Positions 22,536-26,177 of a stretch of DNA of 64,000 bases are shown here, piece by piece. A model generated the notes under the pieces. That model did not search any database and was not told the DNA's origin. It saw nothing but the letters and a program-made list of their open reading frames with translations. This DNA comes from an uncultured Anaerolineales bacterium. GTDB taxonomy: Bacteria > Chloroflexota > Anaerolineae > Aggregatilineales > Aggregatilineaceae. The stretch lies in assembly GCA_937135955.1 (NCBI GenBank), contig CAKZOB010000052.1:1-64000 (forward strand). Direction: 5' to 3'. Within the stretch, counting starts at the first letter, position 1, and the number at the start of each line of letters is the position of its first letter. The translations under genes were made by a program, and so were the position numbers.

Positions 22536-22690
22536 GCAAAGGTTGACAGCGCCTTTGCCCCGCCCGATGGCCCTCATCCCCTGGCCCCTTCTCCCGCGCT
22601 GCGGGCGAAGGGGAGCGCTCGTGCCAGAGACAGGCAGTCCCCTCGCCCCGCGACGCAGTCGCGAGGGCGAGGGGATTGAGGGGTGAGGGG
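22536..22690. repeat. Dispersed palindromic repeat, copy 2
   Basis: Bases 22536-22606 match 37679-37749 over 71 bp with about six mismatches. To the right lies a near-perfect palindrome (22639-22674: CCCCTCGCCCCGCGAC, three-base loop, GTCGCGAGGGCGAGGGG). The core of that palindrome recurs at 7815-7885. It is non-coding and sits between the ABC operon promoter and the leuS promoter. Confidence 0.75.
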
Positions 22691-22743
22691 CAGCAGACTG
22701 CTGCAAATTGCCTGTCAAATCTTGCGCGCACCCGAAAAACGCC

Positions 22744-22772
22744 TTGACAAGCGCCCCGCACGCCGCTAGAAT
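22744..22772 (+). promoter_or_regulatory. Strong promoter of leuS T-box transcript
   Basis: TTGACA (22744-22749) is a perfect -35. A 17-bp spacer leads to TAGAAT (22767-22772). Transcription should start near 22779, just ahead of the T-box Stem I. Confidence 0.85.
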
Positions 22773-22984
22773 GACAATCACTCTTGAAAAAGTGCATAGT
22801 GCCAACAGCGATGAACGGAAGTAGTAGGCCATCGTCGCAGTGAGCCGGGGACAGTGCGAACCCGGCAGTGCGCCCCGACGAGCGCTCAGGCCGAACTCGT
22901 CCGGGAGCTGCGCGGCTGAAAGTCAGTAAGCCGCGCCGGAGATGCCCGTTACGCATAATGAGTGGGTGGCACACCACATCGCAT

Positions 22985-23058
22985 GGGCCCATAGCTCAGC
23001 TTGGGAGAGCGCCACAATGGCATTGTGGAGGTCAAGGGTTCGAGCCCCTTTGGGTCCA
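22985..23058 (+). tRNA. tRNA-Ala (anticodon GGC) inside the leuS T-box leader
   Basis: A 74-base cloverleaf. The acceptor GGGCCCA pairs with TGGGTCC (one G-T), and the D arm is GCTC/GAGC with an A-G-rich loop. The anticodon stem CCACA/TGTGG has loop ATGGCAT (anticodon GGC), then variable AGGTC, T arm AAGGG/CCCTT with loop TTCGAGC, and discriminator A at 23058. CCA is not encoded. It has no promoter of its own: the nearest is the T-box promoter at 22744. It lies between the IIA/B-like segment and the antiterminator, where Stem III of an ordinary T-box would be. Confidence 0.95.
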
Positions 23059-23095
23059 CTCTTTCAGAGGCCACCAAGCAGGGTGGTACCGCGGA

Positions 23096-23144
23096 GTCCT
23101 CTTCGTCCCTGGCCAGCAGGCCAGGTTTGCGAAGGAGGACTTTT
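23096..23144 (+). terminator. T-box terminator ahead of leuS
   Basis: GTCCTCTTCG (23096-23105) pairs with CGAAGGAGGAC (23130-23140, one bulge), followed by TTTT. A smaller TGGCC/GGCCA hairpin sits in the loop. It overlaps the antiterminator sequence, as required for T-box control. Confidence 0.9.
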
Positions 23145-23162: not shown

Positions 23163-23258
23163 ATGATCTTCCGCCGATTGCGCTTCTGGCGACGACGGAG
23201 CGGGTTTTTGTGGCGGATGCCACGCCTGCGCCGCCTGCTGTGGCGACGCTGGCGCTGA
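23163..23258 (+). CDS. Arg/Trp-rich 31-residue ORF in leuS leader
   Basis: A short frame between the T-box terminator and leuS. The ATG at 23163 follows GGGGGA by four bases. The peptide starts MIFRRLRFWRRRSGF and has 13 Arg and 4 Trp in 31 residues with almost no acidic residue. It would only be made when the T-box reads through. It could be a real small cationic peptide, a leader peptide affecting leuS translation, or a chance frame; no homologue can be named. Confidence 0.35.
   Translation: MIFRRLRFWRRRSGFLWRMPRLRRLLWRRWR

Positions 23259-23387: not shown

Positions 23388-26177
<2,790 letters not shown>

Follow-up and report, generated by a model that had tools for sequence, protein, structure and literature searches.

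T-boxes are among the best-studied riboswitches, and the leucyl-tRNA synthetase gene (leuS) of an uncultured Anaerolineales bacterium raises a question about them: how can a leucine T-box and an intact tRNA-Ala gene occupy the same leader? The window, which is the whole 64,000-nucleotide stretch of DNA that we analyzed, contains such a leader on its plus strand. A preliminary description, made from the letters of the DNA, had read it as a full T-box in which a tRNA stands where Stem III belongs. From their sequences, both the T-box and the nested tRNA-Ala look functional.

Anatomy of the leuS leader

The Rfam T-box model (RF00230) matched positions 22802-23113 of the plus strand at 87.8 bits (E 1e-18) over all 219 of its 219 positions. 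The reading of a full leucine T-box ahead of leuS is supported, and the CTC specifier, the T-box motif and the terminator were all found. The score of this covariance search, which the preliminary description had named as a test of its T-box, lies just below the Rfam gathering score of 93; the likely cause is a 97-nt insert that holds the tRNA and that the Rfam alignment placed in the Stem III loop, although nested relatives such as L043 (133 bits), L050 (112 bits), L275 (100 bits) and L051 (94 bits) score above it.

The specifier CUC, read from the sequence at 22896-22898 (CTC in the DNA, context GAACUCG), agrees with the downstream gene leuS, an open reading frame of 929 aa at 23388-26177, and a tRNA-Leu(GAG) gene that fits this specifier is present in the same genome (G000:C80:74666-74748). 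In the Rfam alignment, Stem II (GCGCGGC / GCCGCGC) occupies 22910-22936 and the Stem IIA/B region, with CCGTTA at its end, 22937-22951. The T-box motif (AGGGTGGTACCGCG / AGGGUGGUACCGCG) was located at 23080-23093 from both the sequence and Rfam, and its UGGU at 23084-23087 matches the discriminator base A73. An intrinsic terminator followed by TTTT extends over about 23095-23144, where a 73-nt fold has a free energy of -37.4 kcal/mol (z -4.3); this terminator and the antiterminator are mutually exclusive. All of these leader features, and leuS, lie on the plus strand. None of the seven further T-boxes in this genome encloses a tRNA.

The nested tRNA-Ala(GGC) at 22985-23058 of the plus strand, as the preliminary description had placed it, was recovered by both Rfam (59.8 bits) and ARAGORN. 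It is a canonical cloverleaf with a GGC anticodon, G3-U70 and A73, and CCA is not encoded. ARAGORN found no further tRNAs in the 64-kb window, and the genome as a whole contains 44 tRNA genes, among which tRNA-Ala(GGC) occurs once, as the nested copy. Because this copy is the sole one, its expression is expected, and a mature, charged tRNA-Ala(GGC) would be expected to arise from it. A GGC-specific pattern matched in 68 genomes, 64 of which had exactly one tRNA-Ala(GGC) copy, and in the Chloroflexota genomes that we compared by eye on positions, the single copy is the nested one. Across the 129 nested loci described below, G3-U70 and A73 are invariant (129/129), and CCA is encoded in 75, at a median distance of 22 nt from the T-box motif.

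Two further observations concern the flanks of the leader. In the gap between the terminator and leuS, the window holds an Arg/Trp-rich ORF of 31 aa (23163-23258), and most same-family relatives among loci L013-L027 carry at its place ORFs of about 43 aa (...ALSPRQPAPVPIPVRD...RRR) that are similar to one another. Upstream of the promoter, a G+C-rich inverted repeat at 22573-22695 gave weak minus-strand matches to unrelated Rfam families.

Stem III around the nested tRNA

The order of elements in the leader is GAGUG, GGUGGC, the tRNA, GCCACC and AA, which puts the tRNA inside the Stem III loop. GAGUG (22960-22964, plus strand) corresponds to the RRRNG discriminator motif and lies immediately 5′ of Stem III, whose arms are GGUGGC at 22965-22970 and GCCACC at 23070-23075 of the same strand; AA follows at 23076-23077. 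RRRNG, Stem III and AA together form the discriminator element of T-boxes (PMC7778990), and in this leader both RRRNG and AA are retained at the base of the stem.

To score the covariation of the two arms, rows were aligned by their flanking motifs, independently of the pairing. The 5′ anchor was the last RAGNG-like motif ahead of the tRNA, with 16 of the 129 loci set aside, and AA stood at the expected register in 116 of the 129, the 13 without it there being set aside. In the 87 distinct anchored rows, 77.2% of cells were paired compared with 51.6% after shuffling, and both sides had changed in 168 cells compared with 63. None of 500 shuffles scored as high as the observed stem, and slid registers scored far lower. 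A 70-row subset gave 84.8% compared with 59.2% shuffled, and it looks better than the 87-row test in that it omits mostly poorly fitting rows of the Chloroflexota group f37, whose arms fit poorly to the Stem III register used. For the bare leader, minimum-free-energy folding did not yield Stem III and preferred a local GUGG/CCAC hairpin together with CCACC/GGUGG pairing; the helix therefore rests on comparison. Since the arms pair and covary around the tRNA, we rejected the idea that the tRNA takes the place of Stem III, which corrects the preliminary description on this point. Judged by the aligned relatives, Stem III is kept, with the tRNA in its loop. That Stem III tolerates such a guest probably reflects where the discriminator contacts are made, at its base in RRRNG and AA and not in its loop.

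Distribution of the nesting and its variants

When the leader was used for a DNA search, 15 of the 17 other genomes of the family proved to share the nesting, the two without it being 73% and 80% complete, and it was also found in other families of the order. Additionally, we scanned one genome per GTDB species for the T-arm of any tRNA with a T-box core behind it (at least 120 stretches), and among the matches listed, most have tRNA-Ala(GGC) shortly before the T-box motif. Genomes with the pattern numbered 49 among 400 Chloroflexota, where one match is probably due to chance, and 67 among 299 from the phylum of Syntrophomonas; the reversed-pattern control gave 0 in both. Related Chloroflexota, in which the preliminary description had proposed to look for the arrangement and for covariation, share it in the family and more widely, and over the nested loci Stem III covaries. 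The arrangement also reaches far beyond Chloroflexota: the nested set comprises 129 loci from about seven phyla, with Ala(GGC) as the nested tRNA. Their record titles name Chloroflexota, Thermomicrobiota, Bacillota, Coprothermobacterota, Caldisericota, Armatimonadota and Actinomycetota, plus one bin called Pseudomonadota, and cultured isolates are included, for example Desulfofundulus thermosubterraneus DSM 16057 and Syntrophomonas palmitatica JCM 14374.

Rfam confirmed the T-box in all 20 of the nearer loci scanned and in eight spread examples, and full T-box matches came from Bacillota, Thermomicrobiota, Ktedonobacteria, Coprothermobacterota, Caldisericota, Armatimonadota and Actinomycetota records. 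The CUC specifier in its context (AACTC[AG]) is present in 124 of the 129 nested loci. Behind the nested leader, leuS was found in nearly all loci that are long enough, several contigs ending earlier; in Desulfofundulus it lies about 2 kb further downstream, and leuS-homologous ORFs also follow nested leaders in other phyla. Candidates with other nested tRNAs (Ser, Gln and Asn; L105, L117, L119 and L149) gave no T-box at the Rfam gathering score and were taken as chance matches. Because the nesting recurs among family members, in further phyla and in cultured isolates, we rejected an assembly join, which the preliminary description had listed as a possible refutation, as well as a one-genome curiosity. 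The anatomy of the nested arrangement, its conservation, its covariation and the single copy of its tRNA were demonstrated by sequence and comparison, and by its distribution the nesting is old and wide.

Variant arrangements exist nearby. In some Anaerolineae (L264, L266 and L284), tRNA-Ala(GGC) stands outside the leuS T-box, immediately 5′ of it, and in other Anaerolineae the tRNA keeps its place upstream of leuS although no T-box was detected; nesting is therefore dispensable, and these variants can be read as nesting undone or not yet made. In a FastTree tree of LeuS (136 rows), the phylum labels take 10 changes where the minimum is 6, which points to a mostly vertical history with some transfer. 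Separately, in several Chloroflexota the nested tRNA-Ala(GGC) is preceded, at a distance of about 200-350 nt, by a second tRNA, Ala(CGC), which falls before Stem I or close to its beginning (L049, L085, L088, L114, L125, L128, L130, L131, L152, L156, L157 and L158).

Putative mechanism, alternatives and known systems

The only good promoter ahead of the window leader is a sigma-70-type TTGACA-17-TAGAAT at 22744-22772 of the plus strand (-35 at 22744-22749, -10 at 22767-22772; 11/12 matches), the same pair that the preliminary description had singled out, and it is conserved in the family: in each of the 23 loci L009-L031, TTGACA paired with TAGAAT, TACAAT or TAAAAT scores best among the upstream sites. 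Upstream sites scoring at least 9.5 occur in 81% of 120 loci compared with 14.5% after shuffling, and sites of that score between the specifier and the tRNA in 16% compared with 5%. The promoter evidence favors a shared transcript in the window's family.

We consider it very probable that the leader is a transcriptional leucine T-box that hosts the sole tRNA-Ala(GGC) gene in its Stem III loop, the two forming one transcription unit. Every transcript would start at the one promoter and carry the tRNA-Ala precursor. When leucine is sufficient, transcription would stop at the leader terminator with the precursor still made, so that the T-box terminator would also serve as the terminator of the tRNA gene. 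When uncharged tRNA-Leu(GAG) occupies both the CUC specifier and the UGGU bulge, transcription would instead continue into leuS. The supply of tRNA-Ala would then track promoter activity independently of leucine, and leuS would be expressed only on demand. If the sole tRNA-Ala(GGC) is made from the leader, it needs to be excised, although this may follow the transcription decision. RNase P, together with a 3′ processing enzyme, would cut it out, probably once read-through has been decided, and this would break up the spent sensor. We infer co-transcription, processing and the order of events.

Tentatively, and as the preliminary description proposed, processing could itself be a second input to leuS, with RNase P or tRNase Z cutting early enough to part the sensor from the antiterminator or, in another form of the same idea, with the cut setting the 5′ end and the stability of the leuS mRNA. 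The geometry would place a cut at either tRNA end downstream of Stem I and upstream of the T-box motif; in B. subtilis, the thrS and thrZ leaders are cut just upstream of the leader terminator (PMC3997798); and the nesting is kept in distant phyla. However, a transcriptional T-box decides as the polymerase passes the terminator, which perhaps leaves little time for cleavage, and conserved nesting also fits co-transcription and the cost of separating two essential parts. Somewhat more speculatively, the leader could be an ancient dual-purpose RNA, in which the maturation of tRNA-Ala out of the leucine riboswitch belongs to the control and gates expression of another tRNA's synthetase.

The promoter data also bear on a passive nesting in which the tRNA has an independent promoter within the leader, a reading that we regard as unlikely. 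In 13 loci (L208-L220) of group f37, which is probably Ktedonobacteria, a TTGNCG-17-TATAAT-like sequence is conserved between the IIA/B region and Stem III, and the window has CATAAT at about 22954-22959. The f37 lineage may drive its nested tRNA from its own internal promoter, and strict co-dependence of tRNA and leader is therefore not universal. In the window, however, our scan between the specifier and the tRNA found no promoter, and the best site there scores 6.8 (5.6 to 9.3 in relatives L009-L031) compared with 12.6 upstream of Stem I. The absence of a separate promoter ahead of the tRNA, as previously described, holds for the window and perhaps not for group f37.

It is quite improbable that the leader senses two amino acids, with the nested tRNA-Ala or its folding competing in cis for the UGGU bulge and so coupling alanine to leucine. 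The frequent encoding of CCA, the short distance to the T-box motif and the fit of A73 to UGGU are in line with such competition, but the window copy lacks an encoded CCA and the precursor has no free 3′ end; 3′-extended tRNAs are not expected to stabilize the T-box antiterminator. That the T-box has decayed and simply flanks a tRNA gene can practically be dismissed, as can an assembly join: the score slightly under the Rfam gathering score would suit decay, but the specifier, the T-box motif and the covarying Stem III are kept across phyla, and the nesting recurs in family members and isolates.

Returning to the single transcription unit, the nesting joins tRNA-Ala(GGC), usually in its sole copy, to the leucine synthetase switch in about seven phyla. 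A Stem III loop can hold a structured guest of 75 nt, and the supply of an essential tRNA would be tied to the promoter of a riboswitch. The system also allows a direct test of a possible interplay between tRNA processing and the riboswitch decision. A T-box with an essential tRNA gene in its Stem III loop is apparently undescribed, as the preliminary description had supposed: the open literature that we searched gave no earlier account of a tRNA gene inside a T-box, and the surveys of Vitreschak et al. 2008 and Gutierrez-Preciado et al. 2009, which fall outside that scope, may remark on such cases. The nesting may have been overlooked because annotation pipelines list the T-box and the tRNA separately.

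Among known systems, the thrS and thrZ leaders of B. subtilis resemble the leader proposed here in that a synthetase leader is cut between its upstream part and its terminator, whereas theirs are cut by RNase J1/J2 or RNase Y and release no tRNA (PMC3997798); by analogy, we take them as a precedent for leader cutting and not for a nested tRNA. With T-boxes of the leuS class (RF00230), the window leader shares Stem I, the CUC specifier, Stem II, the IIA/B region, the RRRNG-Stem III-AA element, the UGGU motif, the antiterminator and terminator, and leuS downstream, and it differs in holding a functional-looking tRNA gene in the Stem III loop. Similarly, the nested gene has the cloverleaf, the GGC anticodon, G3-U70 and A73 of a tRNA-Ala(GGC) gene, but instead of standing free, this sole copy lies within a helix of a regulatory leader.
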